Below, one piece after another: positions 4,831 through 26,804 of a stretch of DNA of 36,013 nt (positions are counted from its first letter, which is position 1; every line of letters begins with the position of its first letter). This stretch comes from a virus. The stretch spans positions 1-36,013 of the IMG/VR virus record IMGVR_UViG_3300042261_000351; one strand, 5' to 3'. Position numbers and translations under genes: made by a program. The notes beneath the pieces were generated by a model. The model did not search any database. It had not been told where the DNA came from and saw nothing but the letters and a program-made list of their open reading frames with translations.

Positions 4831-4921
4831 CAAACAGATATTAGATTTCAACAATCATTTTTATTTTAAAAGAAAATATCAAAAATATTTAAAATATTGT
4901 AAAAATAATAGGAAAAAATAA
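4823..4921 (+). CDS. Possible 32-residue basic peptide
   Basis: ATG at 4823 overlaps the stop of the preceding gene (ATGAATAA) and the frame runs 32 codons to TAA at 4919-4921, one base before the next ATG. The product starts MNNKQILDF and is rich in Lys, Tyr and Asn, ending KNNRKK. The exact filling of a gap between two coupled genes favours a real coding or coupling ORF. The base composition is so AT-rich that a short open frame by chance is also possible. Its end carries the AGGAAA Shine-Dalgarno of the next gene. Confidence 0.4.
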   Translation: MNNKQILDFNNHFYFKRKYQKYLKYCKNNRKK

Positions 4922-4922
4922 T

Positions 4923-5630
4923 ATGAAAAAAATAGGAATAATACAACCCGGAAGAATTGGTGATATTATTATAATATTACCAGCTATTAAACATCTTAAA
5001 AAAGATGATACTCAAATATTCTGGCCTATATACGAACAATATATTTGGATGTTTACTGATGTAATAGATTATGTTACATTTATACCAGTTAAATATGATG
5101 TATATAATGTTGTAAAAGAGTGTAACAATATATTAAAAAACATATATAAATGTGATGAAATAATTGATACTGCCGCCACCTTTCCCGATAGTACTGCTAC
5201 AAAAGAATATGTTGATAACGGCGATGGATGGAAAGAACCCTTTGATGTTTTTAAATATAAAAAATTAAACATTGACATTGCATGTAAATATGGATTAAAA
5301 AATTGTTTAAATAGAAATTATAAAAAAGAACACGAATTATATACACAATTAGTTAAAAACGAAAAATATGCTGTAGCTTTTTTAAGTTGTTCAAACGGAA
5401 AATACAATGTACAATTTGATGTACAAGACGGTCAATTAATTGAAGTTGAAGAATCATATAATATATTTCATTGGATAGAAATATTAGAAAACGCAAATAC
5501 AATTATTACATTAAATAGCGGTCCATTATGCTTAGTAGAACAACTAAATTTATCAAAACCAAAAAAAATACTTTTTAAAATTCCTAATGGAAAGTTACCA
5601 TTATTACAAACTAAATGGGATATTATATGA
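4923..5630 (+). CDS. GT9-like (ADP-heptosyltransferase-type) glycosyltransferase, short
   Basis: A 235-residue protein opening KKIGIIQPGRIGDIIIILPAI, the N-terminal motif of family 9 GT-B enzymes such as LPS heptosyltransferases (R.GDxxxxLPA). Near the C-terminus, TIITLNSGPLCLVEQLN matches the part of GT9 proteins that contacts the nucleotide (usual form TxDSGxxHLA). It is about 100 residues shorter than typical GT9 enzymes (around 330-350), and the middle is compressed. It could be a minimal catalytic form or a glycan-binding relative. AGGAAA lies upstream. The stop overlaps the next start as ATGA at 5627-5630. Confidence 0.65.
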   Translation: MKKIGIIQPGRIGDIIIILPAIKHLKKDDTQIFWPIYEQYIWMFTDVIDYVTFIPVKYDVYNVVKECNNILKNIYKCDEIIDTAATFPDSTATKEYVDNGDGWKEPFDVFKYKKLNIDIACKYGLKNCLNRNYKKEHELYTQLVKNEKYAVAFLSCSNGKYNVQFDVQDGQLIEVEESYNIFHWIEILENANTIITLNSGPLCLVEQLNLSKPKKILFKIPNGKLPLLQTKWDII

Positions 5631-6406
5631 AAATAGCATTTACAATAATATTAAATGGTAAAATACATTTATTACACAATAATTATTATAAAACTATATT
5701 AGAATATTTTGATTATTGGGTTGTGGTAGAAGGAGCCAGTAAAAACACTGGAAGCACTTCGTGGTGTAAACCAATATCATGTCAACATCAAAATAACGGA
5801 CACTCTGTTGATGGAACAGTCGAATTTTTATATGAATTGAAAGGACAATATAAAAATATAATTCCAATTTTTTCAGAGGGATTGTGGTGCAATAAAGATT
5901 CACAGGTAAATACTGCTATTGCTAGAATCAAAGAAATAACAAAAGAATGTACATTATGGGAAATAGATGCTGACGAGCAATGGAAACCAGAGCAATGGAA
6001 TCACGCAGAATCTATATTAAAAGAAGAAAACGCCAAAACCGGATGTTTTTTATGCAATCATTATGTTGGTAAAAATTTAATCGCTGTAGGAGAATGGGGA
6101 GAAGGAAGAAAACTACCATATAGACGTTTATGGCATTGGAAAGATGAATTCTTTGAAAGCCATGAACCCCCAAGATTATCTGGAGGAAATGGATTAGGCA
6201 TACTAATTCCTATTAAATTTAATCATTATTCATTATATTTTGATAAAGATGTTCAGTTTAAAGAAGAATTCTATAATTATACTGGTTTATATCAAAGATG
6301 GAAAGATTTGCAAAATATGAAAGAATTTCCTCAACATATAAGTAAATTATTAGGTACTGATACACATTGGGGACATACAAATACTTTAATAATAAAAAAG
6401 GAGTAA
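5627..6406 (+). CDS. GT-A-type glycosyltransferase (putative)
   Basis: ATG 5627 is chosen over ATG 5615 because it forms an ATGA overlap with the preceding stop and has GGGA about 6 bases upstream; this gives 259 residues. The start KIAFTIILNGKIHLL is a beta-strand/loop opening, DYWVVVEGAS resembles the GT-A nucleotide pocket, and WEIDADEQW (D114, D116) is a clear DxD motif. An aromatic, histidine-containing segment follows (FNHYSLYFDK). The pattern is like phage and bacterial proteins loosely annotated as GT2 or GT17. No transmembrane segment is seen. The donor sugar is unknown. Confidence 0.62.
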   Translation: MKIAFTIILNGKIHLLHNNYYKTILEYFDYWVVVEGASKNTGSTSWCKPISCQHQNNGHSVDGTVEFLYELKGQYKNIIPIFSEGLWCNKDSQVNTAIARIKEITKECTLWEIDADEQWKPEQWNHAESILKEENAKTGCFLCNHYVGKNLIAVGEWGEGRKLPYRRLWHWKDEFFESHEPPRLSGGNGLGILIPIKFNHYSLYFDKDVQFKEEFYNYTGLYQRWKDLQNMKEFPQHISKLLGTDTHWGHTNTLIIKKE

Positions 6407-6407
6407 A

Positions 6408-7223
6408 ATGAATTTTATAGACGGAAATAATTTTATAGATCATCATATTAAAAACAATATATCTTGTGCCATAGGTAAAATAGGTGTTGTTGAATTAAAA
6501 CTTTTGCATAATTATCAAAATCAAGTTTACACTTCTGATGTAATTGAAGAAGGGCAATTCGTGGCTGGTATATATCCATATTCGAGAGATGAATATAATA
6601 AATTTGCAAAAATATATACAACTTCTTTATTAAATATTGATGCTTTAGCCGTATGGAATACTATTTTAAAAGATTTTGAGATTTCAATTTGTCAACATAT
6701 AAAAGCATATCCAATAAGATTGCAAGATATTGAACCTTATTTTCATATTCCACCTTGGTCTAAATCGTTAGAAAATAAAAAAGTGTTAGTAATAAGTCCA
6801 TTTGCAGAAAGTATTCAAAAACAATATCAAATTAGAGAAAAGATATGGCCCAATGACATACTTCCAAAATTTGATTTAACTGTAATTAAATATCCAAACG
6901 CCAGCACCGTTGATAGTAAAAATCCATTCAAATCTACCATTGATGTTATTGAAATTACTAAACAAAAAATGAAAAATGTTGACTATGATGTTGCATTAAT
7001 AGGCGTTGGTGGTGCATCTATTCCTTTAACAGCTTATGCTAAAACATGTAAAAAAATTGGTATACACATGGGAGGTTCAACACAAATTTTATTTGGAATT
7101 AGAGGAAAAAGATGGGATAATATACCAGAATTTCATAAATTTTTCAACGAATATTGGATACGGCCATCAAAAGACGAAACACCAGAAAAGGTTAATAGAG
7201 TAGAAGGGGGTTGTTATTGGTGA
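6408..7223 (+). CDS. GT-D-fold-like carbohydrate enzyme (putative)
   Basis: A 271-residue protein with a strong GGAG site. Near the N-terminus SCAIGKIGVVEL (20-30) resembles the IGxxG...E element of GT-D-type glycosyltransferases (the DUF1792 group, where a D/E pair binds the metal). The middle has PPWSKSLENKKVLVISPFAESI, and toward the end YDVALIGVGGASIPLTAYAK, then KKIGIHMGGSTQILFGIRGKRW. The last part looks like a nucleotide- or sugar-phosphate-binding Rossmann half. The assignment to a fold is inference; what is seen is a soluble two-part alpha/beta protein inside the glycan cassette. It overlaps the next gene by 4 bases (GTGA). Confidence 0.5.
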   Translation: MNFIDGNNFIDHHIKNNISCAIGKIGVVELKLLHNYQNQVYTSDVIEEGQFVAGIYPYSRDEYNKFAKIYTTSLLNIDALAVWNTILKDFEISICQHIKAYPIRLQDIEPYFHIPPWSKSLENKKVLVISPFAESIQKQYQIREKIWPNDILPKFDLTVIKYPNASTVDSKNPFKSTIDVIEITKQKMKNVDYDVALIGVGGASIPLTAYAKTCKKIGIHMGGSTQILFGIRGKRWDNIPEFHKFFNEYWIRPSKDETPEKVNRVEGGCYW

Positions 7224-8017
7224 ACAAAGTTATTGTCAAATATGATGAATGGGGTAGAATGGGAAATAGAATGTTTCAATATACATTTGGAAAAATTCTA
7301 GCAAACAATAAACAATGCGAATTTTATTGTGATTCTCTTCCTAATTTTCATTTTACGAAATTAGAGAATTCCCCTAAACTTATAACACAGATAAACAACC
7401 CTTTATATATTAAAGAAAAATATGGAAACAATTACGTAAATTATGATGAACTATTGAACCATGATGGCGACATAATTGTAAATTCTTTTTTACAAAAATC
7501 TGAATATTATATACCATATTTGGATAAAATTAGATTATGGTTTAGAATTGGTTTACCATTTGACACACCAGTTAAACTACCAGAAAAAGATGAAGTTGTA
7601 ATGCACATTAGAGAGACAGATTATAAAAACTTAGGAATATTATTAAATATTAATTATTATTCAAATTTAATTTATAATACTAATAAAAAAGTTACAATTG
7701 TAACCGATAATTGTAATTCAGAATTAGTACAAAATTTTAAAAATCGTTGTAATATTTTTAGTAACGAACCTATCAATTCATTTAATACAACATCAACTGA
7801 CAAAAGTATGTTAGATTTTATATATATGTTATATGCAGATACTTTAATATTATCACAATCAACATTTTCGTGGTGGGCAGCTTTTTTAGGTGAACATAGT
7901 GAAATTTATTTTCCTGTTAATTCTACAAATAATAAAGGTATGTGGAAATTAAATCCAAATAAAGACGATATTGATTTATATATACCAAACAAAAATTTTA
8001 TAAAGGTGATTATATGA
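7220..8017 (+). CDS. GT11-like alpha-1,2-fucosyltransferase family protein
   Basis: The GTG at 7220 is preferred as start: it overlaps the previous stop as GTGA, and GAAGGGGG at 7203-7210 sits 9 bases upstream; TTG codons at 7211 and 7217 are alternatives. The 265-residue product shows family 11 motifs: GRMGNRMFQYTFG near the N-terminus (usual GGLGNQLFQYAFG), VVMHIRETDY near residue 128 (usual HIRRGDY, the GDP-fucose-binding segment), and LILSQSTFSWWAAFLGE in the last quarter (usual SNSTFSWWAAWL). GT11 enzymes transfer fucose from GDP-fucose in alpha-1,2 linkage. An epimerase/reductase three genes downstream, of the type that makes GDP-6-deoxyhexoses, fits this. Confidence 0.82.
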   Translation: MNKVIVKYDEWGRMGNRMFQYTFGKILANNKQCEFYCDSLPNFHFTKLENSPKLITQINNPLYIKEKYGNNYVNYDELLNHDGDIIVNSFLQKSEYYIPYLDKIRLWFRIGLPFDTPVKLPEKDEVVMHIRETDYKNLGILLNINYYSNLIYNTNKKVTIVTDNCNSELVQNFKNRCNIFSNEPINSFNTTSTDKSMLDFIYMLYADTLILSQSTFSWWAAFLGEHSEIYFPVNSTNNKGMWKLNPNKDDIDLYIPNKNFIKVII

Positions 8018-8817
8018 ATTTTGTGTTATTTCATATTGGTGAAAATCTTCCATCGCATTTTCCATATTGTGTACAACAAATTCAAAAAACCAACCCGACT
8101 TGTCCTGTTTATATTATTACTAATTTAAATATTGATATAAACGAACCCAATATTAAAATAATTTCTACTAATAGTTTAAATATACCAGATATTGGTAATT
8201 ATTATAAATATGATCCTATGGGACCACTATTTCGTAATGCTATGTTAAGAATATTTTATATAGAATCGTTTATGATTAAATATAATATAGAAGATGTAAT
8301 ACATTTTGATAATGATGTTTTAATTTATGAAAATATATTAGAAATCAAAGAGGAATTAGAAAAAGAAAATTTTTATATTACACCTGCCACAACAATAGAT
8401 TATATTTTTGGATTTAGTTATATAAAAAATTATCAAACACTATCAAAAATAAATATTAAATTATATAATCTTATTATACAAGGCGAAAAAAACTTGGAAA
8501 AAATAATAGGAAGTATGCCACATGAAATGAGATTATTAAATTATGTTGATCAAGAGGAACACAACATAAATTTGTTACCTATATTACCATCTGATAAAAA
8601 TTTTAATAATTTTAAATATTGTTTTGATCCTTCCTCATACGGTCAATATTTAGGGGGCAGAAAACCAGAATACGATAAATATATAGGAAAACAGATTATT
8701 GAAAATAATATAAAAATATTTATAGAAAATAAAATTCCATATGTTTTTATGAACAATAAAAAATATAAGATATTCAATTTACATATACACAATAAAAAAA
8801 TGAAAGACTTTCTATGA
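8014..8817 (+). CDS. GT-A-type glycosyltransferase (GT8/GT32-like, putative)
   Basis: A 267-residue protein. It begins FVLFHIGENLPSHFPYCVQQI, a common opening for GT8/GT32-like enzymes, continues CPVYIITNL, and has VIHFDNDVLIYEN with the DxD motif at D99-D101. LRIFYIESFM just upstream is the helix that usually precedes this motif. The lower half contains YLGGRKPEYD, plausibly acceptor-side. It overlaps both neighbours by 4 bases (ATGA). A lysine- and isoleucine-rich C-terminus ends the protein without a membrane segment. The sugar cannot be assigned. Confidence 0.68.
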   Translation: MNFVLFHIGENLPSHFPYCVQQIQKTNPTCPVYIITNLNIDINEPNIKIISTNSLNIPDIGNYYKYDPMGPLFRNAMLRIFYIESFMIKYNIEDVIHFDNDVLIYENILEIKEELEKENFYITPATTIDYIFGFSYIKNYQTLSKINIKLYNLIIQGEKNLEKIIGSMPHEMRLLNYVDQEEHNINLLPILPSDKNFNNFKYCFDPSSYGQYLGGRKPEYDKYIGKQIIENNIKIFIENKIPYVFMNNKKYKIFNLHIHNKKMKDFL

Positions 8818-9596
8818 ACGATGTGATAATATACCAACCGTGGGGTGGATTAGGCGACAATTTAGGACATTCACCAATACCAGAATTGTGTTTTAATTCG
8901 AATATAAAATGTTATTTAAGCAATCAAAATGCTTATCGTAATCCCGAAATTTATGATTTAATTTGGGGCACAAACCCATATATCAGTGGAACAAGAGACA
9001 GCACAGACATGTCTTGGCTAGATAAATCTATTAATAGACAGTATAATAGAGATTGGAACGAATTAAAAAATATACAATGTAGATACGGATTTGATCCTAC
9101 ACATCATTATCCTCAAATATATTTTAAACCAAATTATATTCCAGAACTAAAAGAAAAAACAGTTATAAATTTGGGTGGATATTCTATATATGCTTATCAA
9201 AACTTTAATAAAGATATCAATCTGGAAAATTATAATAAATGTGTTGAACAATTAATAGAAAAATATAATCTTGATAATTTTGTTCGGTTAACTGACAATA
9301 TAAAATATGCTATTACACCAAACTTGCCAGTAATTAATAATATTACAAACACTTATGAAATACAATCATTAAAACATTATTCAGATATTATGTTTTCTTG
9401 TAAAAATTATATATGTTTTAATTCAGGACCATCTATATTAGCTTGTGCAATTAAAAATAAATATAAAACAAATTCAAATATTTTTGTTTTTAATATTGAA
9501 AAACTAAATCCTCCGACTAATTATCAATGTTATGTTTTTAAAAACGCTACTTATTTAACTATAGACACCAAACGAATATTAGAAAGGGAAGAATAA
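8814..9596 (+). CDS. GT-B / GT9-like glycosyltransferase (putative)
   Basis: A 260-residue protein that starts NDVIIYQPWGGLGDNLGHSP; the GGLGD element at 11-15 is the N-terminal loop of GT9-like and GT-B enzymes. The second half has HYSDIMFSCKNYICFNSGPSILACAI, which matches the nucleotide-contacting NSGP/DSGP region that also occurs in the other GT9-like gene of this cassette (4923-5630). No membrane segment is visible. ATGA overlap with the upstream gene implies coupled translation. It probably transfers a different sugar from the first GT9-like protein, as the two share only these motifs. Confidence 0.6.
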   Translation: MNDVIIYQPWGGLGDNLGHSPIPELCFNSNIKCYLSNQNAYRNPEIYDLIWGTNPYISGTRDSTDMSWLDKSINRQYNRDWNELKNIQCRYGFDPTHHYPQIYFKPNYIPELKEKTVINLGGYSIYAYQNFNKDINLENYNKCVEQLIEKYNLDNFVRLTDNIKYAITPNLPVINNITNTYEIQSLKHYSDIMFSCKNYICFNSGPSILACAIKNKYKTNSNIFVFNIEKLNPPTNYQCYVFKNATYLTIDTKRILEREE

Positions 9597-9597
9597 T

Positions 9598-10587
9598 ATG
9601 AAATTTTTAATTACCGGCATCACAGGATTTACTGGTCCACACTTAGCAAATATCTTATTAAAAGAAGGACACACCGTTTATGGGTTATATAGAAATGAAA
9701 ATTATTTAGATATATCTGATGTATTAAAAGAAAATATTAAAAAGATTAATTTCATTAAATGCGATTTATTAGATAAAGACAATATATACAATATTATTAA
9801 AGAAAATAAATTTGATGGTGTTTTTCATTTAGCCGCCTATACACATCCGTCTAATTCCTTTGATAATCCCGAACTAGTTTTTAATACTAATACTACTGGA
9901 ACTATGGCACTTTGTGAAAGTATTAGAAAATATAGTCCAGATTGCGTTTTAATGTATTGCTCAACAGCAGAAGTTTATGGGATATACCCCGAAAATGTTT
10001 TAATAAAAGAAAATTTTGCATTAAATCCAATAAGTCCATATGCAGTTTCAAAAGCATCTTCCGAACTGTTTGTGGCCGAACGAACAAAGAACAACATGAT
10101 ACAAGGGTTTGTAACCAGAGCGTTTTCACACACAGGACCAAGACGCCGACACAATTATTGCCTTTCGTCTGATGCCATACAAATTGCTAGAATTTTATTA
10201 AACAAACAAGATAAAATAATCAAAGTTGGCAATTTAGCGTCAAAAAGAGCTACAATGCACGTTAATGATGTTGTTCAAACTTATTATGATTTAATGATTA
10301 GAAAAATAAATTACAACATGAATAATGGAGAAGTTTTTAATATTAGTAATGATACACCACATGAAATTGGTTATTATTTAAATATGATGTTAGAAATGTA
10401 TAATTTGATAAATGTTGTAAAACTAGAACCTGACCCTAAATTATTTAGAAAAATTGATTTACCTTTACAAAGAGCAGATTGTACAAAAATTAAAGAATTT
10501 ATGAATTGGAAATTAGCCACCCCAATATCTACAGCATTACATGATTTAGTTGAATATTGGAAAGAATATGAATGGAGAGTAAAATGA
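9598..10587 (+). CDS. NAD(P)-dependent GDP-sugar epimerase/dehydratase/reductase (extended SDR)
   Basis: A 329-residue extended short-chain dehydrogenase. The dinucleotide loop is GITGFTG at 7-13; HLAAYTHPSNSFDNP follows; catalytic Ser/Thr are in YCSTAEVYG (S122-T123), and the YxxxK pair is Y148 and K152 in SPYAVSK. The C-terminal part (GNLASKRATMHVNDVVQTY and DPKLFRKIDLPLQRADCTKI) is closest by eye to GDP-6-deoxy-D-lyxo-4-hexulose reductase (Rmd) and GDP-mannose 4,6-dehydratase (Gmd). It would therefore make a GDP-6-deoxyhexose such as GDP-rhamnose or a GDP-fucose precursor. A strong GGGA-rich site precedes the start. It supplies a donor for the GT11-like enzyme or other transferases of the cassette. 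The exact reaction is uncertain. Confidence 0.85.
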   Translation: MKFLITGITGFTGPHLANILLKEGHTVYGLYRNENYLDISDVLKENIKKINFIKCDLLDKDNIYNIIKENKFDGVFHLAAYTHPSNSFDNPELVFNTNTTGTMALCESIRKYSPDCVLMYCSTAEVYGIYPENVLIKENFALNPISPYAVSKASSELFVAERTKNNMIQGFVTRAFSHTGPRRRHNYCLSSDAIQIARILLNKQDKIIKVGNLASKRATMHVNDVVQTYYDLMIRKINYNMNNGEVFNISNDTPHEIGYYLNMMLEMYNLINVVKLEPDPKLFRKIDLPLQRADCTKIKEFMNWKLATPISTALHDLVEYWKEYEWRVK

Positions 10588-11639
10588 GTGTAAAAGATTG
10601 TGATTCACATAAATTAATGTATCATCCACAAAGTGTAGCAAAATGGTTAAATAATGAACTAGTTCCTCTACACGCTGAAGTTGGTGTTACAAATAGATGT
10701 AACCATAGATGTAAATTTTGCATTTTAGATTGGGTTACACATGGAACAAATGATTTAAATCCAGACATTTACAATAAATGTTTAAAAGATATGGCGGAAA
10801 TGGGTGTTAAATCTGTTTATTATGCAGGCGATGGCGAACAAACTTTACACCCTAATTTACCAGAATTTATAGAAAATGGTAAAAAACTTGGAATGAGTCA
10901 AGCTTTATCCACAAATGGATCATTAATGAAAGATGAAACAGCAGACAAAATAATTCCAAATTTATCTTGGATAAGATTTAGCCTAGACGCAGCAACACCA
11001 GAAACATATAAAAAAATACACGGCGTTAGTGAAAATGAATATAATAAAGTATTAAATAATATAAAATATTGTGTAAGTTTAAAAAATACATATAATCTTC
11101 CTATTGATATTGGAGTTCAAATTATTGCAATGGAAGAAACAATTAATGATATCGAACCATTAGCAATATGGTGTAAAGAAAATAAAGTTGATAATATACA
11201 AATAAAACCAGCACACAACCACCCAAAAAGCTCATATCATACTGGTTTATATAATTTTGTACAACAATCTTTACAAGAAAAATTAGAAAAATTAAACGAT
11301 GATAAATTTACAGTAGTTGTTAGAGTAAAAAGCATGGAAAGATTAACACAAGAAAAAACTTATAGATGTTGTCATGGATTTGATTTTTATATTATTATTG
11401 ATGCAAGAGGAAATATCATACCATGTAGTATATTTTATAATAACGACAAATATATTTATGGAAACTTATATCAAAATGATATTAAAACAATATGGTTGAG
11501 CGAAAATAGAAAAAATATTATTAATAATATCACAGATTTAAAATTTAAAACCTGTAAAGAATATAAATGTAGATTAGATGTATTAAATCGTTATTTAGAT
11601 AGAATAAAATATCCAGAAAAAAATGATGAGTTTATATGA
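10584..11639 (+). CDS. Radical SAM enzyme with C-terminal cysteine (SPASM/twitch-like) region
   Basis: ATG 10584 (ATGA overlap, GGAG upstream) is preferred to ATG 10572, giving 351 residues. The radical SAM cluster motif CNHRCKFC is at C39, C43 and C46. YYAGDGEQ at about 78-85 is the GGE-type SAM-binding strand, and LSTNGSLM and IRFSLDAATPETY are further TIM-barrel hallmarks. After the barrel, cysteines in YRCCHGF, IIPCSIF and KTCKEYKCR suggest an auxiliary iron-sulfur cluster, as in SPASM or twitch proteins. It lies in the middle of the glycan cassette, so sugar dehydration, epimerisation or C-methylation is plausible. It is not QueE: it is much longer and lacks the QueE layout. Confidence 0.85.
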   Translation: MSVKDCDSHKLMYHPQSVAKWLNNELVPLHAEVGVTNRCNHRCKFCILDWVTHGTNDLNPDIYNKCLKDMAEMGVKSVYYAGDGEQTLHPNLPEFIENGKKLGMSQALSTNGSLMKDETADKIIPNLSWIRFSLDAATPETYKKIHGVSENEYNKVLNNIKYCVSLKNTYNLPIDIGVQIIAMEETINDIEPLAIWCKENKVDNIQIKPAHNHPKSSYHTGLYNFVQQSLQEKLEKLNDDKFTVVVRVKSMERLTQEKTYRCCHGFDFYIIIDARGNIIPCSIFYNNDKYIYGNLYQNDIKTIWLSENRKNIINNITDLKFKTCKEYKCRLDVLNRYLDRIKYPEKNDEFI

Positions 11640-12487
11640 CAAATTATATAACAGGAGAAAAATTACAAGAATGCGTTGATCATACTATTGTATTAAAAGG
11701 ACAATTTTATGCAGATGAACAGTTAAAACATACTAATTGTAAATATACATATTTTGAAAAAAATCAAAATATAAATTCATTACCAAATGATATTTTAAAT
11801 GCAAAATCTTTATTCGTTTATACACATATATTAGATTTTTTCTTTTCAAAGATTTATCCCCTTTTAAAAAACCCTTTTGTGTTAGTTACGCACAATTCTG
11901 ATAATGATATAAACGAGCAATATAAATTATATTTAAATGATACTAAAATTATTAAATGGTTTGCACAAAATGTTAACTATAATCACGAAAAATTAAGTTC
12001 TTTGCCTATTGGAATAGCAAACTCACAATGGCCTCATGGAAATTTGAATATATTTGAAAATATTAAAAATACTAAAATAGAAAAAACAAATCTTATATAT
12101 AAAAATTTTGAAATATCTACTAATATAATACACAGAAATTATGTAAATGCTGCTTTATCGAGAAATAATATATATATGAATACTAAAAAACCATATAATC
12201 AATATTTAATAGATATTAATCAGTCATTTTTTAATATATGTCCAAAAGGAAACGGGATTGACACTCACAGAATGTGGGAGAGTTTATATTTAGGTTGTAT
12301 ACCAGTTGTTGATGATTGTATAAATAATCAAAATTTTAAAGATTTGCCAATTTTAATTGTTTCTAATTGGAATGATGTTACAATCGATTATTTAAAAGAT
12401 AATATTTTAAAATATAAAAATATACAATTCAATTATGAAAAATTAAATTTAAATTATTGGAAAAATAGAATACAAAAAGGAGAATAA
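11636..12487 (+). CDS. Exostosin-like (GT47-type) glycosyltransferase
   Basis: A 283-residue protein. The signature in the C-terminal third is SFFNICPKGNGIDTHRMWE followed by LYLGCIPVVDD and LPILIVSNWNDVT, the usual nucleotide-sugar site of exostosin-like GT-B proteins (CPxG...DTxRxWExLxxGxIPVV). Earlier, FVLVTHNSDNDI and LPIGIANSQWPHG also fit this family. It is coupled to the radical SAM gene (ATGA) and ends in its own AAAGGAG, which serves the next gene. The sugar is unknown; the family includes HexNAc, GlcA, galactosyl and other transferases. Confidence 0.75.
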   Translation: MTNYITGEKLQECVDHTIVLKGQFYADEQLKHTNCKYTYFEKNQNINSLPNDILNAKSLFVYTHILDFFFSKIYPLLKNPFVLVTHNSDNDINEQYKLYLNDTKIIKWFAQNVNYNHEKLSSLPIGIANSQWPHGNLNIFENIKNTKIEKTNLIYKNFEISTNIIHRNYVNAALSRNNIYMNTKKPYNQYLIDINQSFFNICPKGNGIDTHRMWESLYLGCIPVVDDCINNQNFKDLPILIVSNWNDVTIDYLKDNILKYKNIQFNYEKLNLNYWKNRIQKGE

Positions 12488-13042
12488 ATGAGTGCATTTG
12501 AAAATGATACATTTATAGGTGAACAAATAACAGAAATTATTAATAGGGTTAAACCAAGCATCATAATAGAAACAGGCACGTTCATGGGAAATACTACAAA
12601 ATTTTTTACAAAATTTAATATACCATTAGTAGGAATAGAAAAAAACGAAGAATTTTATCAAAAAACGTTAGAAACAGTCGGAGTTTGTTCTCATTTTCAA
12701 TTGTTGCACGGTGATAGCCCAACTATATTAGACCAAAACTACGAAGTTTTAAAAAATAAAAAAATATTTGCATATTTAGATGCACATTGGGGGGGTGGAT
12801 ATACTTTAGAAAGAGAACTAGAGTTTATGGTTAAATTATTAATTAAACCAGTTTTGGCTATACATGATTTTTATAACCCAAATCACCCTGAATACGGATT
12901 TGATTGTCATGATGGTCATGCATATACTTATGATTTTTATAAATCTTATTTTGATAGAATTTATAATTCTAATTATAATTATTATTATAATAACAAAGCA
13001 ACAGGAGCAAAACAAGGAATTATTTATTTAGAACCAAAATGA
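12488..13042 (+). CDS. Class I SAM-dependent methyltransferase
   Basis: A 184-residue protein. Motif I is IIIETGTFMGNTTKFF (E28-T36), the acidic end of strand 2 is GIEKNEEF, and FAYLDAHWGGGY corresponds to motif IV. A following AIHDFYNP matches the active-site strand of small phage/bacterial sugar or peptide methyltransferases. It begins after a strong AAAGGAG site, with no gap from the previous gene. In this context O-methylation of a sugar is the simplest role. The tyrosine/asparagine-rich stretch near residues 155-168 is low complexity. Confidence 0.75.
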   Translation: MSAFENDTFIGEQITEIINRVKPSIIIETGTFMGNTTKFFTKFNIPLVGIEKNEEFYQKTLETVGVCSHFQLLHGDSPTILDQNYEVLKNKKIFAYLDAHWGGGYTLERELEFMVKLLIKPVLAIHDFYNPNHPEYGFDCHDGHAYTYDFYKSYFDRIYNSNYNYYYNNKATGAKQGIIYLEPK

Positions 13043-13893
13043 AACCATACGGACTAATTTGTAACGATTCTATTGAATTGGTTGGTCATAGTTTATTTAA
13101 TAATTTTAGATTAGCTTTATATAATTTATTAGAAGAATCTAATTTTATAGATATAAAATCATTAAACGATTTAGAAAATATTACACATTTATTTATTATA
13201 GACGAACATTTTGCTCCAAATGTAAATATATGGAAAAATATAAATTTTCAATCTTATATAAACAACAAAAACATTAGAGTTATAGTATTTAATTTTGAAA
13301 AAATTTTTAATTCATCTTTTCCTTGGAATGTAGATCATCAATTAAATATTCAAAAATTTAATAATTTTTTTCAATTAGTTTCTGATGTAGAAGACTCTAA
13401 AATATTAAAAACTAATATACTTAATAAACAGTATTTATCGAAAAACACAAAATTTAATATACTACCTAAACAAGATAAAATAGATAAAATTTTATTTATA
13501 GGTCAACTTGATGGTATACAATATAAAAATAGGCAAGATATTTTAAATTATTTAATAAACAATGGTTTAAATATTGATATTGTTAAAACTAATAGAAAAT
13601 TATCCTATTTTGATTTTTTGTGTAAAATAAACGAATATAAATATATTTTAAATCCATTAGGTACTGGTAAATTTATAAATTTAAGACATTTTGAAGCTTT
13701 ATATTTTAATACTATACCAATTCAACAAGTTGATGAGCAAATGATACCAGTTAATTTAAATATATTAAATAATTGTATATATTTTACTAATTTAGAAAAT
13801 TTTAAAAACAAAATATCAGATTTTATCTTTAATAATAACAAATATTTTTTAGAAGATTATTTTAAAGATATAAACTTTTTAAATTACTTATGA
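13039..13893 (+). CDS. GT-B glycosyltransferase-like protein (exostosin-related, putative)
   Basis: A 284-residue protein. The best signature is KYILNPLGTGKFINLRHFE followed by ALYFNTIPIQQV, which parallels the nucleotide-sugar loop and helix of the exostosin-like gene two positions upstream. KILFIGQLDGIQYKNRQDIL is the strand and helix that opens the second Rossmann domain of GT-B enzymes. The N-terminal half is poorly conserved. ATGA overlaps join it to both neighbours. A role in glycan assembly follows from motif and context; the sugar is unknown. Confidence 0.58.
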   Translation: MKPYGLICNDSIELVGHSLFNNFRLALYNLLEESNFIDIKSLNDLENITHLFIIDEHFAPNVNIWKNINFQSYINNKNIRVIVFNFEKIFNSSFPWNVDHQLNIQKFNNFFQLVSDVEDSKILKTNILNKQYLSKNTKFNILPKQDKIDKILFIGQLDGIQYKNRQDILNYLINNGLNIDIVKTNRKLSYFDFLCKINEYKYILNPLGTGKFINLRHFEALYFNTIPIQQVDEQMIPVNLNILNNCIYFTNLENFKNKISDFIFNNNKYFLEDYFKDINFLNYL

Positions 13894-14591
13894 ATTTACC
13901 AATAATAACATGTTTAGGTTCTTGTAGACTTCTTCCTGTAGAAAAATATTTTTCACACACTAAATTAAATGAGATTATATCATTTACTCACAATACAAAA
14001 GAAGTTATACAACTATTAAAATTTATTAATAATGAAATAAATATACCAGAAAATATTAATAGATTTTGTTTTAGAACAGGAATATTAAATAAATCTAATA
14101 TCTTATTACACCATCTATATAAAGAAGCAATACAAAATACTAATATTTTTATTATAGAATTGTGTAGTAATAAATGTTACATTAATAATAATTATTATCT
14201 ACATCATTTGGCAGTTGATACTAGATTTGCTGAATATAAAGACACACCAACAGAAATTATAAACACCACTAATATACATTTTTTAGAAGAAGAGGAAATA
14301 GAAGCAGATTTATTATTTTTATTAAAATATTTAAAAAATAAAAAAATTTTAATTATAACGCATTATAATGTATATCACAATAATGAATTGTTAACTACAA
14401 GAAATAATCTTATTAATAGTATAGAAAATATTTGTAAAAAACATCAAATACCCTTATTTAATCCTAGTATCTTATTTCAACAATATAAACAAAACGATAT
14501 CATACAAAATGATTATGGACATTTGACAAATTTAGGAAAAAATATTGCAGGATTACATTTGCGTCAAACAATACTTGAACTTTTTAAATGA
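13890..14591 (+). CDS. SGNH/GSCFA-like hydrolase (putative sugar acyl-esterase)
   Basis: A 233-residue protein, last of the cassette. It opens LPIITCLGSCRLLPVEKYF, where GSCR at 10-13 resembles the GSC/GNC block of GSCFA and capsule-enzyme (WcbI-like) families. It later has IFIIELCSNKC and a C-terminal DYGHLTNLGKNIAG, like the Asp/His block of SGNH hydrolases (DxxHL...G). Such proteins often remove or add acetyl groups on surface glycans. The nucleophile is not certain: Ser 11 is the candidate. The -35 element of the guaC promoter lies inside its 3' end. Confidence 0.45.
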   Translation: MNLPIITCLGSCRLLPVEKYFSHTKLNEIISFTHNTKEVIQLLKFINNEINIPENINRFCFRTGILNKSNILLHHLYKEAIQNTNIFIIELCSNKCYINNNYYLHHLAVDTRFAEYKDTPTEIINTTNIHFLEEEEIEADLLFLLKYLKNKKILIITHYNVYHNNELLTTRNNLINSIENICKKHQIPLFNPSILFQQYKQNDIIQNDYGHLTNLGKNIAGLHLRQTILELFK

Positions 14592-14609: not shown

Positions 14610-15569
14610 ATGAATACAAATATAGAATATCAATTTTCAGACATTTATTTACAACACAAGAAAACCATAGCAGACTCAAGAACAACGGATTGCGATTGTT
14701 CCATCCAATTTGGTAATTTTAAATTTAAAACACCAATAATTCCTGCCAATATGTCCTCTGTTGTAAATAATAAAACTTGTCTTTATTTAGCAAAAAAAGG
14801 ATGGTTTTATATCAATCATCGTTTTGATGGGTTAGATAATATTGATTTTGTAAAGTTTATGCACGATAATAATTGCTTTGCTTCTATTTCTATAGGAGTT
14901 AATCAAGATTCCTATACTTTAATAAGTGATTTAATAGTTAATAAACGTATACCAGAATATGTAACAATTGATATTGCAAATGGTTATTCAAATAAAGCAG
15001 AAGCTATGACCAAATATGTTAAAAAAATGTTACCAGAAACCTTTTTAATTGTTGGAAATTGTGCAACAGCAGAATCAGTTAAAGAAATTGCAGAGTGGGG
15101 AGCAGACGCAATTAAGATCGGGATAGCTAATGGCGGGGTATGCACGACATATAACGCAACAGGGTTTGGCAGACCACAATTCTCTACGGTATTAGATTGC
15201 GCCAGAACATCCAAGGTGCCAATTATATCTGATGGTGGATGTCGAGACATAGGTGACTTCTCAAAAGCCCTTGTAGCAGGTGCAACAATGGTAATGTCAG
15301 GCAGCATGTTTGCTGGATTTGAGGAATCTGGCGGTGATATGGTAGAAATCGAAAATAAGAAATATAAACTATATTACGGGTCTGCCTCTTATAATAATAA
15401 ATTACATCGAAAAAATGTGGAAGGAACCTGTAAATTAATACCATACAAAGGATCAATGGAACCGTTTTTAGACGATATTGAAGACGGTTTGAAATCTGCC
15501 ATAAGTTATGCTGGTGGAACAACCTTAAAAGCTTTTAACAATGTAGATTGGGTAGTAAAACATAAATAA
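14610..15569 (+). CDS. guaC: GMP reductase (IMPDH/GMPR family)
   Basis: A 319-residue TIM-barrel protein. The catalytic loop is IGIANGGVCTTYNATGFGRPQ with C178 and T180; the usual GMPR loop is IGPGSVCTTR..TGVGYPQ. IISDGGCRDIGDFSKAL and MSGSMFAGFEESGG are the phosphate-binding segments shared with GuaC. The lack of an inserted CBS domain favours GMP reductase over IMP dehydrogenase. GMP reductase converts GMP to IMP with NADPH, moving guanine nucleotides toward adenine, which suits an AT-rich genome. The middle of the gene is visibly richer in G and C than its surroundings. It starts with no Shine-Dalgarno, directly under a promoter. Confidence 0.88.
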   Translation: MNTNIEYQFSDIYLQHKKTIADSRTTDCDCSIQFGNFKFKTPIIPANMSSVVNNKTCLYLAKKGWFYINHRFDGLDNIDFVKFMHDNNCFASISIGVNQDSYTLISDLIVNKRIPEYVTIDIANGYSNKAEAMTKYVKKMLPETFLIVGNCATAESVKEIAEWGADAIKIGIANGGVCTTYNATGFGRPQFSTVLDCARTSKVPIISDGGCRDIGDFSKALVAGATMVMSGSMFAGFEESGGDMVEIENKKYKLYYGSASYNNKLHRKNVEGTCKLIPYKGSMEPFLDDIEDGLKSAISYAGGTTLKAFNNVDWVVKHK

Positions 15570-21057: not shown

Positions 21058-21747
21058 ATGAAAAATATTAAAATAATTTCAGCAACTAAAGAATCTAATT
21101 CTTTCAAGACACTAATATATCCTTTTATTAATTATTATAAAATGGATGCACTTGTAAATAGATCAATATGTGATGGTGACATTATAACAAACAATACTGA
21201 ATCACTTGCCAAAGTTTATAATAAATTTATAAATAAAGATAACGAAAATATAATATTAGTATTCTGCCACGACGATTTATTAATTGAAGATAATGCTATA
21301 ATCGAAAAACTTAATGAAGCTATTAAACATTATGATATTATAGGATTAGCTGGAGTAAAACCACCAATTACAATTAAAGAACCTGCATTGTGGCATTTAA
21401 TGGGAAATAGACAAAATCTTTCAGGTGCAGTTGCACATTTTGATAAAAATTCAGATAATAAACGATTTATGACATCTTTTGGTCCAATCCCTGAAAGAGT
21501 AATTTTACTTGATGGTGTATTTTTAGCAATAAATACTGAAAAAATACTAGAAAAAGATTTGAAATTTGATGAAAATAATCCAGCTAAATTTCATTTTTAT
21601 GATTTACATTTTTGTTTAGATGCTAATAAATTAGGTTTAAAATGTGGAACTTGGCCTATATGGTGTACTCATAAAAGTCATGGACTAGAACAAGTTTCGC
21701 AAGATTGGCTAGAAGGACAAAAATATTTTCTAAATAAATGGAGCTAA
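21058..21747 (+). CDS. GT2-like glycosyltransferase (Glyco_tranf_2_5 type)
   Basis: A 229-residue protein. NENIILVFCHDDLLIEDNAI carries the metal-site acidic pair (CHDD) of this GT-A group. IGLAGVKPP, VILLDGVFLAI and FHFYDLHFCLDANKLGLKC follow in the usual order. The last is the catalytic-side segment, where an aspartate-histidine pattern (DLHF) is typical. It lies well away from the main cassette, after dNMP kinase, showing that carbohydrate genes are scattered as well as clustered. No Shine-Dalgarno is visible; translation is probably coupled to the small ORF 3 bases upstream. Confidence 0.72.
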   Translation: MKNIKIISATKESNSFKTLIYPFINYYKMDALVNRSICDGDIITNNTESLAKVYNKFINKDNENIILVFCHDDLLIEDNAIIEKLNEAIKHYDIIGLAGVKPPITIKEPALWHLMGNRQNLSGAVAHFDKNSDNKRFMTSFGPIPERVILLDGVFLAINTEKILEKDLKFDENNPAKFHFYDLHFCLDANKLGLKCGTWPIWCTHKSHGLEQVSQDWLEGQKYFLNKWS

Positions 21748-21749
21748 TT

Positions 21750-22370
21750 ATGCAAGAGTTTATAACACCTATAACATTTAAAAGAACTACATCATTTATT
21801 GAATATTATGACGAAATGTGTGAAATATTAAAAGAATCACCCTACGTTTTATCTTATTTTAGTCAGCATAATAATGATAATTTAGATAATATTGCATATA
21901 ACGCAGAAGTAGCCGAAAAAATCAAAAAAGATTATAAATTAATTGGAATTTATAATAGATTTACATTAGATAATGATATCTATTTTAAACAAGAAGAAAA
22001 TTATATTAATTATACAATTATTGATAAAAATTCAATAATGGGACAATTTGAAGGTAAATTAATAGATGATAATCTTTTTAAAATTATCTGGATTTGGAAT
22101 AATAAACGTTCTGTTCATGGTTTAATACGAGAAATGTTTTTTAAATATTTCCTTCCTAAATATAAAATTATATTGTCCGATGATACCGTTACACAAAATG
22201 GGAAAATATTTTTTAATAAACTTTTAACAGAATGTTTAACCCTTAATAAAGAATGTGGCATCTATAATTTAACAGATAAAACTTTCACAAAATATACTAA
22301 TTATGACGAATTAATGAAATTTTGGAATATTCAAAATAGTACAAATTATTTATTCTATTTTAAAAATTAA
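21750..22370 (+). CDS. Hypothetical protein, possibly GNAT-like
   Basis: ATG 21750 has GGAG at 21740-21743 and is preferred over ATG 21738, giving 206 residues. The C-terminal half reads RSVHGLIREMFFKYFLPKY followed by ILSDDTVTQNGKIFFNKLL, which is reminiscent of small phage acetyltransferase-like proteins (the pattern SD..QT..G...W). No acetyl-CoA loop is clear, so the link is weak. The gene ends just before a decayed homing endonuclease. Confidence 0.55.
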   Translation: MQEFITPITFKRTTSFIEYYDEMCEILKESPYVLSYFSQHNNDNLDNIAYNAEVAEKIKKDYKLIGIYNRFTLDNDIYFKQEENYINYTIIDKNSIMGQFEGKLIDDNLFKIIWIWNNKRSVHGLIREMFFKYFLPKYKIILSDDTVTQNGKIFFNKLLTECLTLNKECGIYNLTDKTFTKYTNYDELMKFWNIQNSTNYLFYFKN

Positions 22371-22372
22371 AT

Positions 22373-22557
22373 ATGAAAAAAGTGATGGAATTTATAAATA
22401 AAAATGAGTTCTATTATTTAATAGGTTTAATTGCTACAGATGGTATTTTATTGTATCCTAACAACACTATTCTTTTCTAAAAGGTTGTTACGATAAAAGA
22501 AAATCTAAACAATATGAAAAATATAAAGAATATTTTATGAAATATGTTGAAAAGTAA
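22373..22557 (+). pseudogene. Remnant of a LAGLIDADG homing endonuclease
   Basis: ATG 22373 opens 35 codons ending at TAA 22478-22480. EFYYLIGLIATDGILLYPNN is a LAGLIDADG helix (LIGLIATDG) with its usual lead-in. Directly after, in another frame (22477-22557), KGCYDKRKSKQYEKYKEYF ends in a stop and looks like the C-terminal tail of the same kind of enzyme. A full enzyme has well over 100 residues, so most of the interior has been deleted and the frame broken. It sits in the gap before the glycosyltransferase at 22595. Confidence 0.7.
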
Positions 22558-22574
22558 TAAAAATTTGATAAATT
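22547..22574 (+). promoter_or_regulatory. Sigma70-type promoter for the GT-B gene
   Basis: TTGAAA (22547-22552), 16-base spacer ending TGA, TAAATT (22569-22574), then a 20-base leader with AAAGGA before ATG 22595. The -35 lies in the last codons of the homing endonuclease remnant. Confidence 0.5.
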
Positions 22575-22594
22575 AATACAAAGGATTAAATAAT

Positions 22595-23863
22595 ATGGCT
22601 GATAATAAACAATATGCTAACATAAATTATGATATATTTGACATTGGATATCCTTACTGTCCTTATCTACCTTTTGGCGCAAAGCCCATCAGTAAGGCCG
22701 TGGTGTCCAAAACAAACATCCAACCACCCCCACTAGCCCTTCCTGGTTCTGACCTCCCTAGAGCCTTGCAATATGCAGCAGATTATAGTGGATGTGGGTT
22801 TTATAGAACTGGACTTCCTGAATTTTTATTAAATTATAATCAAAAAATGGTCATTAGTACATTAACTGCTATGGTTATTGATCCAAGATTTTATTTGGCT
22901 GGTTATAAAAGTATTTTATTACAAAGACAAGCAACACCTGTTCAAAAAGAATTTGTAAAATTTTTGAAAGTTATGGGTAATGCACTAAATTCTAAAATTA
23001 TTTATGAAGTAGATGATGTCGTATGTTTCGAAGATATTCCTCTTTATAACCGTTGTAGAGGCGCATTCACTGATCCCGAAATAAGAAAAAGTATTGAAGA
23101 AATTGTAAATTTGTGTGGTGAAATGATAGTAGTTTCCGATTATATGAAAGAATATTATAAAAATAAATTTAACATCAAAAATGTTACAACAATTCCAAAT
23201 TATATACCAAAATTTTGGTTTGATAGATTTTATAATGAAGAAAAAATTCTGAAAAATTATCAAGATAATAAAAAACGTCCAAAGATTTTAGTAACTGCAA
23301 GTGGAACTCACCTCGATGTTGCTAATGCTACAAACCAAAAAGATGATTATTCCGTGGTATTACAAAATATTATAAAAACACGTAAAGATTTTCAATGGGT
23401 TTTTATGGGCGGCTTCCCGTTACTGTTAAAGCCACTGATAGATTGTGGTGATATTAAATTTCTACCTTGGGCGCAATTATTAGATTTTCCAAGTGCTATT
23501 AATAATGTTGGAGCACAAGTTACAATGGCTGCATTATTAGACAATCATTTTAACCGTTCAAAAAGTTGGATAAAATTAACTGAATCGTCTCATTTAGGTA
23601 TTCCATTTGTCGGGCAGGATTTAGAACCGTATAAAAGTGCATTTCATAAATTTAATACAAGTGATGAAATGATAGACCAAATTAAAAGTATTGTTATAGA
23701 TGAAGACACTTATATGAAAGATGTAAAGCGTCATAGAGCATTTGGAGATACTTTATGGCTAGATGATAATCTGGAATGTCATCTAGAAAAACTCACACTA
23801 CCATTTGGTGATCAAAAACGTATATCATTATTAAAATTGAATCCAGAACAATTAATTAAATAA
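22595..23863 (+). CDS. GT-B (GT4-like) glycosyltransferase
   Basis: A 422-residue protein. SKIIYEVDDVVCFEDIP and EMIVVSDYMKEYY with TIPNYIP are the N-domain features of GT4-like enzymes. The C-domain has WVFMGGFPLLL, KFLPWAQLLDFPS and RSKSWIKLTESSHLGIPFVG, the nucleotide-sugar site with the glutamate pattern (normally E...GxP). About 100 residues at the N-terminus are proline-rich and unlike GT4. That part is encoded by unusually GC-rich DNA (about 22670-22775), unlike the rest. Such proteins next to phage polymerase genes may glycosylate DNA or virion proteins, but no hydroxymethylase is seen here. It has its own promoter and AAAGGA site, and decayed homing endonucleases on both sides. Confidence 0.75.
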   Translation: MADNKQYANINYDIFDIGYPYCPYLPFGAKPISKAVVSKTNIQPPPLALPGSDLPRALQYAADYSGCGFYRTGLPEFLLNYNQKMVISTLTAMVIDPRFYLAGYKSILLQRQATPVQKEFVKFLKVMGNALNSKIIYEVDDVVCFEDIPLYNRCRGAFTDPEIRKSIEEIVNLCGEMIVVSDYMKEYYKNKFNIKNVTTIPNYIPKFWFDRFYNEEKILKNYQDNKKRPKILVTASGTHLDVANATNQKDDYSVVLQNIIKTRKDFQWVFMGGFPLLLKPLIDCGDIKFLPWAQLLDFPSAINNVGAQVTMAALLDNHFNRSKSWIKLTESSHLGIPFVGQDLEPYKSAFHKFNTSDEMIDQIKSIVIDEDTYMKDVKRHRAFGDTLWLDDNLECHLEKLTLPFGDQKRISLLKLNPEQLIK

Positions 23864-24127: not shown

Positions 24128-25612
24128 ATGTATAGAAACATAGTATATTCAAACTTCAATAAAGATATCACACTTTGGACATGGGATATTGAAGGAAATA
24201 GGATAACAGAAAAATATCCATTTAAACCTTATTTATATGTTGAAGATGCAAATGGTAAAGATGGTATATCACTTTATAACACACCTTTAAGAAAAGTTGA
24301 ATTTTCCGATAAAAAGGCAAGAGATCATTTCTGTTTATCAAATTTAAAAACTTATGGAAATTTGCCACCTACTCAACAATTTTTAATTGATAAATATCAT
24401 GGACAAAACAAAAAATCAGAATTTTCATTATTTCCTTTAAAAATCTATTCATTAGATATTGAAACTTTTTCAGAGAATGGATTTCCTGACCCTAAAATAG
24501 CCAATGATACAATTACTCTTATAAGTGTTCATAATTCTATTGATAATACCATTCATACGTTTGGTCTAGCTAATGATTATAATACGTCAGATGATAGAGT
24601 TTTTTATAAATGTTTTGAAAACGAGGAGGAATTATTAAAGGCTTTTATAAGATTCTGGCGTAAGGATTTTTGCGATGTTGTAACTGGATGGTTTTGTGAT
24701 GGCTTTGATATACCTTATATTTGTAATAGAATTAATAAAATTTATAATGATCCAGAAGCTTGTAATAAATTATCGCCAACTGGACGAGTTTGGAAACAAG
24801 ATAATGCTAAAAAACGTTTACAAGATTATGAACAATTATGGAACATTGAGGGTATAACTATTTTAGATTATCAGTATGTTTATAAGGTTTTTACAAAGGA
24901 TAAGAGAGAAAGTTATTCATTAAATGCTATTTGCGAAGAAGAATTAGGAACAGGTAAATTAAAATATGATGCTATTTCATTAAGTCATTTAGCTAAACAA
25001 GATTGGCACAAATTTGTGGATTATAATATACAAGATGTACAATTATTGGTACAGCTTGAAGATAAATTAAAGTATTTAAAAATTTGTAGGGAATTGGCAT
25101 ATAATGGTTTAGCACCATTTTCAACGAGTACAAGCACTACCACATTGGTAACTGGTGTAGTTGCACAAAAAGCACTTGAACAAAATAAAATAATACCAAC
25201 TTTTGTGACAAAAGAATTTAAAAAATTTGAAGGTGGATTTGTAAAAGAACCACAAGTAGGTTTACAAAAATCTCTATTATATTATGATGTTGATTCGCTA
25301 TACCCTAATACAATGGTAGCATTGAATATATCACCAGAAACCAAACTAGGTAAAATAGTTAGGAAAGATATAGAAAAAGATGAGTATGATATTATAACAA
25401 CATCTGGTAAAAAATATACATTAAATAAACAAAATTTAGACTATTACCTAAAAAAAGAAAGAGTTTCTATATCAAAATCAGATGTATTATTTACACAAAA
25501 ATTTAGAGGAATCTTTTCAAATATTGTCGAAGAAAATTATAAACAAAGAGTAGAGATAAAAAATAAAATAAAAGAACTAAAAAAAGAATTAAATAGTTTA
25601 AAAAATCCATAA
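24128..25612 (+). CDS. gp43A: DNA polymerase gp43, N-terminal part (exonuclease, palm motif A)
   Basis: A 494-residue family B polymerase fragment. Exo I is SLDIETFSENG with D110 and E112 (T4 D112/E114). Exo II is VVTGWFCDGFDIPY, and Exo III is YNIQDVQLLVQLED. Palm motif A is YDVDSLYPNT with D387 (T4 D408). The protein ends in the fingers helix: RVEIKNKIKELKKELNSLKNP, then TAA. Motifs B and C are in the next gene at 25707, so the polymerase is made as two chains that must associate. The break lies just before motif B, where other T4-like phages are known to have split gp43 genes with homing endonucleases between. A leaderless-type promoter precedes the start. Confidence 0.93.
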   Translation: MYRNIVYSNFNKDITLWTWDIEGNRITEKYPFKPYLYVEDANGKDGISLYNTPLRKVEFSDKKARDHFCLSNLKTYGNLPPTQQFLIDKYHGQNKKSEFSLFPLKIYSLDIETFSENGFPDPKIANDTITLISVHNSIDNTIHTFGLANDYNTSDDRVFYKCFENEEELLKAFIRFWRKDFCDVVTGWFCDGFDIPYICNRINKIYNDPEACNKLSPTGRVWKQDNAKKRLQDYEQLWNIEGITILDYQYVYKVFTKDKRESYSLNAICEEELGTGKLKYDAISLSHLAKQDWHKFVDYNIQDVQLLVQLEDKLKYLKICRELAYNGLAPFSTSTSTTTLVTGVVAQKALEQNKIIPTFVTKEFKKFEGGFVKEPQVGLQKSLLYYDVDSLYPNTMVALNISPETKLGKIVRKDIEKDEYDIITTSGKKYTLNKQNLDYYLKKERVSISKSDVLFTQKFRGIFSNIVEENYKQRVEIKNKIKELKKELNSLKNP

Positions 25613-25706
25613 ATTCTATTACTACAACTGATTATAAAAGAGAGATAGAAAAAATGGATACGATTTAGACCATATAATACCAATTCACTATGGATTTATT
25701 AATAAA
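25613..25706 (+). pseudogene. Remnant of an HNH homing endonuclease between polymerase halves
   Basis: After the TAA of the first polymerase half, the frame opened at 25638 reads NGYDLDHIIPIHYGFINK (25653-25706), the DH..P core of T4-type HNH homing endonucleases (typically YxLDHIxSIxxGFKNNI). It is in frame with the ATG of the second half. A different frame just upstream encodes TTTDYKREIEK, which looks like the segment that normally precedes this core, so one frameshift separates them. Only about 30 codons remain. The enzyme must be dead; what is left is a scar. Confidence 0.7.
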
Positions 25707-26804
25707 ATGGACAACGAACAAAAAATTAAAATTTTAGAAAGACAAATATCACAACTAGACATACAACAGTTTACAAAAAAAATATTTTTAAATAAATTGT
25801 ATGGTTATTTTGCAGAACACCACTCGCCTCTTTATGACATAGACTTAGCCGAGTCTATTACACAGACAGGACGCGAATTAATCAAAAAGGCGTCGAGTAT
25901 AGCTGAAGATTATGTTGAAAACAAACACGGAATAATTACTGATTGTGTTATTGCAAATGATACTGATTCTCTAATTATTACAATTCAACCAATATTAGAT
26001 AAAAATAAGCAACCTTTTTTTGTAGAAAATACAATTAATCCATATGTAACTGATATTGCAACAGAGTTTAACAACATTTTAAATACCGAAATAAAAACTT
26101 GGGCAAAAGACGAATTAAAATCTGAATATTGTACATATAATTTTAAGCGAGAAAGTATATCAAGTTCAGGTATATTTTTAGAAAAAAAGAGATATATACT
26201 TAACGTCATTGAAGACGATGGATTTAAAACTGATAAATTTAAATATACTGGTGTAGAAGTCGTAACAACTAAAACACCTAAAAAAGTTAAACCACTTATT
26301 AAAAATGCTATTCAAACAATTATTAAAAAGAGCGATAAAAAAGAAGTAGACCAAATTATCAAAGATACTTATAAAGTTTATCAAACATTTTCCATTGAAG
26401 ATCAAGCAGTTACCATATCTTTAAACAATTATGAAAAATATTATAATAGAGCTAAAGAATTTAAAGCAGGTAAAGGTACGCCAAATCATGTAAAAGGTGC
26501 TATCTATTATAATTTATTGTTAAAAAAATATAAAATTGATAATAAATACGAATCTTTAAAGAGTGGTGATAAAATTAAAACTTTTTATGTATTACCAAAT
26601 AAATATAATATTGAAAGTATTGCATTTTTAAATAAATTTCCAGAAGAATTTAAAACAGAATTATCCATAGACATTAAGAAAATGTACGAAAAAACCTTAT
26701 TAAATCCTATTAAAAGTGTATTTGATGTAATAGGATGGCAAATTAAAAACCCATCAAACGACGAACAATTAGATTTATTAGAGTTTTTTGGACTTGAAAA
26801 TTGA
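25707..26804 (+). CDS. gp43B: DNA polymerase gp43, C-terminal part (fingers, palm motif C, thumb)
   Basis: A 365-residue polymerase fragment. Its start (MDNEQKIKILERQISQLDIQQ) continues the fingers helix broken in gp43A. Motif B is KKIFLNKLYGYF (24-35), motif C is VIANDTDSLI with D85 and D87, and YTGVEVVTTKTPKKVK is the KxxP/thumb-junction motif. The two halves total 859 residues against 898 in T4 gp43. The C-terminus (NDEQLDLLEFFGLEN) resembles the sliding-clamp-binding tail. No good ribosome site precedes the ATG (GGA at 25692 is distant), so translation may depend on the upstream half. The initiator region derives from the HNH scar. Confidence 0.92.
   Translation: MDNEQKIKILERQISQLDIQQFTKKIFLNKLYGYFAEHHSPLYDIDLAESITQTGRELIKKASSIAEDYVENKHGIITDCVIANDTDSLIITIQPILDKNKQPFFVENTINPYVTDIATEFNNILNTEIKTWAKDELKSEYCTYNFKRESISSSGIFLEKKRYILNVIEDDGFKTDKFKYTGVEVVTTKTPKKVKPLIKNAIQTIIKKSDKKEVDQIIKDTYKVYQTFSIEDQAVTISLNNYEKYYNRAKEFKAGKGTPNHVKGAIYYNLLLKKYKIDNKYESLKSGDKIKTFYVLPNKYNIESIAFLNKFPEEFKTELSIDIKKMYEKTLLNPIKSVFDVIGWQIKNPSNDEQLDLLEFFGLEN

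Follow-up and report, generated by a model that had tools for sequence, protein, structure and literature searches.

How a replicative DNA polymerase comes to be encoded in two genes, and whether the two products still make up one enzyme, is the question raised by a virus record from IMG/VR of 36,013 bases (26% G+C), which was analysed over its full length and is referred to here as the window. Besides a family B DNA polymerase (PolB), it contains a set of T4-type replication genes, i.e., those for a helicase, a late sigma factor, gp47/gp46-like nucleases, ThyX, UvsX, a DnaB-type helicase and a gp32-like protein. The virus belongs to a distant T4-like lineage. The replication genes are broken up by a glycosyltransferase-like run, a GDP-mannose dehydratase-like gene and a radical SAM/SPASM gene (3248-14591 and 21058-23863), and a homologue of IMP dehydrogenase and GMP reductase lies at 14610-15569 (PF00478, 1.3e-56; phrog_9582, 1e-87).

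The polymerase is encoded by two open reading frames of 494 and 365 codons with 94 bases between them, correct to the base as the initial annotation had given them. Pfam searches and motif alignments also confirmed that the exonuclease and motif A reside in the first gene and motifs B and C and the thumb in the second. The features of the two genes are as follows.

24128-25612, + strand: N-terminal half of PolB (494 aa) with N-terminal and exonuclease domains, palm motif A and first finger helix (PF03104, 1.1e-21; PF00136 positions 12-145; 70% identity to the unsplit polymerase of locus L161)
24455-24466, + strand: exo I motif DIET (alignment with relatives)
25022-25036, + strand: exo III motif YNIQD (alignment with relatives)
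25286-25306, + strand: palm motif A, DVDSLYP (alignment with relatives)
25707-26804, + strand: C-terminal half of PolB (365 aa) with second finger helix, motif B, palm motif C and thumb (PF00136 positions 146-452)
25779-25805, + strand: motif B region, KIFLNKLYG
25959-25970, + strand: motif C, DTDS

The PF00136 profile is shared out cleanly between the two products, the first of which contributes the PF03104 exonuclease in addition. All signatures of a T4-type family B enzyme were found, namely exonuclease and polymerase domains with DIET, YxxxD, DxxSLYP, Kx3NxxYG and DTD, the motifs being retained as DIET (exo I), YNIQDV (exo III), DVDSLYPNT (motif A), KKIFLNKLYG (motif B), DTDS (motif C) and KKRY in the thumb. 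In exo II the usual Asn is replaced by Phe, and this Asn is absent from the closest relatives too. The open frame that includes the second half matches phrog_262 (7e-71) and phrog_1918 (2.5e-66), the latter a DNA polymerase family of 382 positions. Judged by these matches, the two frames represent a single T4-type family B polymerase that is split in two genes. The fact that phrog_1918, annotated as DNA polymerase in PHROGs, covers the C-terminal half nearly from end to end suggests that C-terminal polymerase halves have already been catalogued there.

The position of the break was located on an AlphaFold2 model of the unsplit polymerase of the relative L161 (mean pLDDT 89, pTM 0.82), a protein whose best PDB profile match is 1clq (1.1e-111) and whose top Foldseek matches in the PDB are to RB69 gp43. 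The finger helices of this model comprise residues 462-490 and 492-522, and the split maps between residues 489 and 501. The initial annotation had placed the break within a helix of the fingers, just before motif B. Its location in the fingers and ahead of motif B was borne out, but in the model it falls not inside a helix but at the hairpin turn between the two. The split polymerase genes of phages 44RR and henriette 12B8 are broken in the same fingertip. The fingers are the part of the polymerase that holds the incoming nucleotides.

To collect related loci containing both parts of the polymerase, viral contigs were scanned, UvsX and alignments of the two halves serving as queries. The viral-contig scan with the C-terminal half as a single protein gave no matches, the relatives being recovered via the neighbouring UvsX, and distant blastn searches against GenBank phages gave none either. 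Altogether 145 distinct loci were compared, among them the window and five GenBank phages, and the polymerase runs continuously through the fingertip in all but two, the exceptions being the window and Vibrio phage henriette 12B8; six further loci were flagged at this site merely owing to in-frame overlap of match segments. Aligned with unsplit T4-like polymerases, as the initial annotation had suggested, both halves proved collinear with single genes, uninterrupted at the fingertip, in about 140 distinct viral contigs, which rules out a chance pair of open reading frames. The closest relatives, L161 (70 and 60% identity for the N- and C-terminal half, respectively), L082 (61 and 59%) and L083 (61 and 54%), have a short coil at the break site and lack the insert, and no HNH sequence was detected inside the polymerase gene of any of the approximately 140 related viral loci. 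Since the relatives are continuous without an insert, the 94-base stretch is best read as an insertion in the lineage of the window, and on this comparison of sequences the split is derived rather than ancestral. Within this lineage it was seen in one contig only; a scan of the viral contigs for the DNA of the gap itself, with the length of the A runs left variable, did not find a second copy. The initial annotation's statement that the split has become fixed therefore goes beyond what a single contig establishes.

Two other kinds of irregularity were noted among the related polymerase genes. Locus L066 (1140-2690) carries roughly 160 additional in-frame residues at motif C (DTDS), where polymerase inteins are usually found. 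In L065 (1130-1142) and L053 (2737-2780), small frame changes, which may be assembly errors, interrupt the polymerase frame in the N-terminal half.

Selective constraint was assessed at 126 alignment columns conserved in at least 93% of the relatives. Departures at these columns amount to seven in the N-terminal and four in the C-terminal half of the window's polymerase, as compared with ten and eight in L161 and nine and three in L082. When identity to six outgroups was determined, the window did not fall below L161 in any of the six comparisons for the C-terminal half and in five of the six for the N-terminal half. By these measures neither half appears more diverged than its unsplit relatives, and relaxed constraint is not apparent, a result which is supportive rather than conclusive because most of the divergence may predate the split.

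Translated in two frames, the 94-base gap itself yields about 37 residues that belong to the HNH core of phage homing endonucleases. The features of this stretch are:

25600-25605, + strand: run of six A, where homology switches frame from the N-terminal half to the remnant (junction or slip)
25600-25653, + strand: 5' part of the HNH endonuclease remnant, KKSINSITTTDYKREIEK, in frame -1 relative to the N-terminal half, overlapping its last codons and stop, and collinear with the HNH domain of CP21_075
25610-25612, + strand: stop codon of the N-terminal half, within remnant-derived or junction sequence
25649-25654, + strand: run of six A, where a second frame switch occurs, within the remnant (decay of the endonuclease's reading frame)
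25650-25709, + strand: HNH core of the remnant, KNGYDLDHIIPIHYGFINKM, whose frame continues open into the C-terminal half, its last codon being the ATG of that half

The pattern Y-x-LDHI..I..GF.N, typical of the HNH core, is present. When KKSINSITTTDYKREIEK and KNGYDLDHIIPIHYGFINKM are joined, they form a collinear match of 37 residues to an HNH reading frame located between pieces of the tail-sheath gene in Campylobacter phage CP21, and in Acinetobacter phage Acj61 and Providencia phage PSTRCR_121 the HNH reading frames located between genes 18 and 19 align with the core as well. A tblastn search of the whole phage collection with the peptide yielded E-values of 0.2 or worse, as the peptide is so short. 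A profile built from 25 viral HNH reading frames, by comparison, picked out the scar with an E-value of 2e-10 (next best 0.22) when the window was searched as an unaltered six-frame translation, and against the same profile the frame-joined peptide scored 44 bits versus 12.9 for the best of 2000 shuffles. The 25 reading frames had been fetched with an alignment containing the window's own peptide, and the search was therefore repeated with a profile from four GenBank HNH proteins only. The scar was again recovered first (1.5e-6, next 0.5), although these four proteins had themselves first been found by matching the scar peptide. Independent libraries are in weak agreement (phrog_5104, 5.7e-4; phrog_6050, an HNH endonuclease family, 6.1e-3; Pfam HNH_4, 0.037, below its cutoff). 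Absent are the endonuclease's N-terminal region and the latter half of its HNH motif (PPEIIG..NLQ.IPW..N..K), the remnant stopping at GFINKM. With these parts missing and an internal frame change, it cannot be active.

By its sequence, the gap thus contains the remnant of an HNH homing endonuclease gene that is no longer complete. The initial annotation had proposed that a mobile gene between the halves had decayed to a scar, and this is supported by the HNH core fragment in the gap and by the relatives that cover the site without an insert. The start codon of the C-terminal half was probably supplied by the remnant. A search for an intact endonuclease at the fingertip site of a relative found none, and for this reason we infer the order of events; none of the HNH reading frames fetched by the profile lies beside a polymerase gene. 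Homing endonucleases do occur at the polymerase locus in relatives: in L200, an HNH-like reading frame (3158-3913, - strand; HMM E-value 1.3e-5) is situated directly upstream of an unsplit polymerase gene and on the opposite strand.

The second gene begins without a Shine-Dalgarno site. The initial annotation was right in this respect, but the observation is nothing special in the window, where Shine-Dalgarno pairing is weak or lacking at about 40% of the gene starts (~41% with pairing weaker than -3 kcal/mol). The region around the start is as open as that of other genes, folding with -1.3 kcal/mol, compared with a median of -1.5 kcal/mol for genes and -4.0 kcal/mol for other ATGs. The suggestion that expression of the second half relies on reinitiation is not favoured over initiation independent of a Shine-Dalgarno site, as many genes here start without one; ribosomes may reinitiate once they have stopped at the end of the first half, but they need not do so. 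One structural feature was predicted near that stop:

25596-25670, + strand: weakly supported candidate RNA hairpin around the stop codon of the N-terminal half (z -2.39; 4 of 200 shuffles fold as well)

Taking these results together, we consider it likely that insertion of an HNH endonuclease gene at the fingertip and its later deletion gave rise to a two-gene, two-chain polymerase. In such a history, the gene for an HNH-family homing endonuclease would have inserted into the loop at the fingertip and would then have been mostly deleted, leaving about 110 bp which, together with a further frame slip, parted the polymerase into two genes. The first gene would now stop within the junction, and the ATG of the second would be the end of the remnant, leading straight into polymerase sequence. 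The chains would be produced as separate polypeptides, translation of the second most likely starting in the ordinary way at its unstructured, A/T-rich start; by analogy with phage 25, contacts in the palm and between the paired finger helices most likely hold them together as a functional replicative polymerase. Three points count against this explanation, namely the occurrence of the split in one contig, the start of the second gene without a Shine-Dalgarno site and the negative search for an intact endonuclease at this site in relatives.

The first two points also lend themselves to the view that the C-terminal half is a decaying pseudogene and that the virus replicates via another polymerase or not at all. 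We give this very little credit, because the half forms a clean frame of 365 codons with all motifs retained and without acceleration relative to unsplit relatives, and no polymerase of another family was noticed in the window, which is an incomplete contig. A different doubt concerns the sequence itself. Both frame changes lie at A6 runs and the three frames join collinearly, as would be expected if the virus encoded one continuous protein with an in-frame, HNH-derived fingertip insert and both breaks were sequencing or assembly errors. We regard this as very unlikely: the apparently intact reading frames of the window contain 154 A or T runs of at least six, and two errors within 50 bases with none noticed elsewhere would be improbable. 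Moreover, the first frame change coincides with the junction of polymerase and endonuclease sequence, where an error is unnecessary, and since the relatives lack the insert, the insertion is real under either reading. Another version, in which the gap is native fingertip sequence masked by two homopolymer errors, was first entertained because the fingertip of RB69 is long and the frames join; it was rejected, the approximately 140 relatives having a short fingertip without such sequence.

It may also be asked whether the two genes are reunited during expression. T4 gene 60 is translated with ribosomal bypassing. In T4, that gene is the insertion site of the mobA endonuclease (PMC2988022). A comparable mechanism, with ribosomes skipping part of the gap to yield one fused polymerase, could draw on the CCA preceding the stop of the first half (CCA-TAA), on a second CCA in the frame of the C-terminal half at 25680 and on the predicted hairpin. 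Chance alone is quite likely to place an in-frame CCA in a stretch of about 30 codons, however, the hairpin is weak and long, the C-terminal half starts at an ATG of its own with open surroundings, and the split gp43 of phages 44RR and 25 needs no bypass, all of which makes this mechanism very unlikely. Only slightly more credible, and still very unlikely, is that the scar is reused as a recoding signal, a hop from CCA to CCA or a double slip at the A6 runs providing some full-length polymerase beside the two chains. Spliced elements are known as well: gene 43 contains group I introns in phages 25 and JSE (PMC2993671), an intron is annotated in Acinetobacter phage AC4, and the MIJ3 polymerase has a split intein (PMC6892783). 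That the gap is a minimal group I intron or marks a split intein, so that a continuous mRNA or protein results, is nevertheless exceedingly improbable: 94 bases are too short for a group I intron, an Rfam scan of the gap found no relevant family, and intein sequence is present neither at the end of the N-terminal half nor at the start of the C-terminal half, where the products end and start as plain polymerase coil. A single Rfam match at 25821 on the opposite strand was discarded as chance.

Insertion followed by deletion, our preferred explanation, can be set beside several known systems. The precedent invoked by the initial annotation, split gp43 genes in T4-like phages, is real: gene 43 is split in Aeromonas phages 25 and 44RR, and in phage 25 the two gp43 chains co-purify and polymerase activity is present (PMC2988022). 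Whether an endonuclease or the untranslated spacer caused the split could not be decided in that review (PMC2988022). According to its record, Aeromonas phage 44RR2.8t resembles the window in that the split lies at the fingertip, one gene carries the exonuclease and motif A and the other motifs B and C, and a short untranslated spacer without an endonuclease gene separates 43A and 43B. Its spacer, however, comprises 49 bases that include a GC-rich hairpin as well as a strong ribosome site, whereas the 94 bases of the window retain an HNH core and lack a ribosome site. As the two lineages are only distantly related, the splits are probably independent. In phage 25, the two-gene gp43 is likewise tied to a homing endonuclease, but seg43 is of the Seg type and still present, while that of the window is of the HNH type and persists only as a fragment (PMC2988022). 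Vibrio phage henriette 12B8 (L003, 264-3544) also has its polymerase split into two reading frames at the same fingertip; it differs by a complete 208-aa reading frame between the halves, weakly HNH-like and annotated as hypothetical. The window would thus represent a third phage lineage with a fingertip break, probably independent of 44RR/25 and of henriette 12B8, which marks the fingertip as a site where a replicative polymerase tolerates cutting.

An insertion with a comparable outcome is known from phage Aeh1, where mobE splits nrdA and an essential enzyme is made as two working chains (PMC2988022), although there another gene is affected and the endonuclease is intact. The proteins whose HNH core matches the scar peptide, CP21_075, Acj61p177 and that of PSTRCR_121, are encoded beside or inside tail-sheath genes as complete reading frames of 208-388 aa, in contrast to the approximately 37 residues kept in the inactive scar. 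The HNH core in the spacer supports a route from insertion via deletion to a two-chain enzyme that may have become fixed, while the origin of the 44RR spacer was left open by the review, and the split polymerase offers a ready test case for the assembly of two polymerase chains. Two-piece phage polymerases were already known; what is new here is a spacer that still shows its endonuclease origin, and this in a distant lineage.
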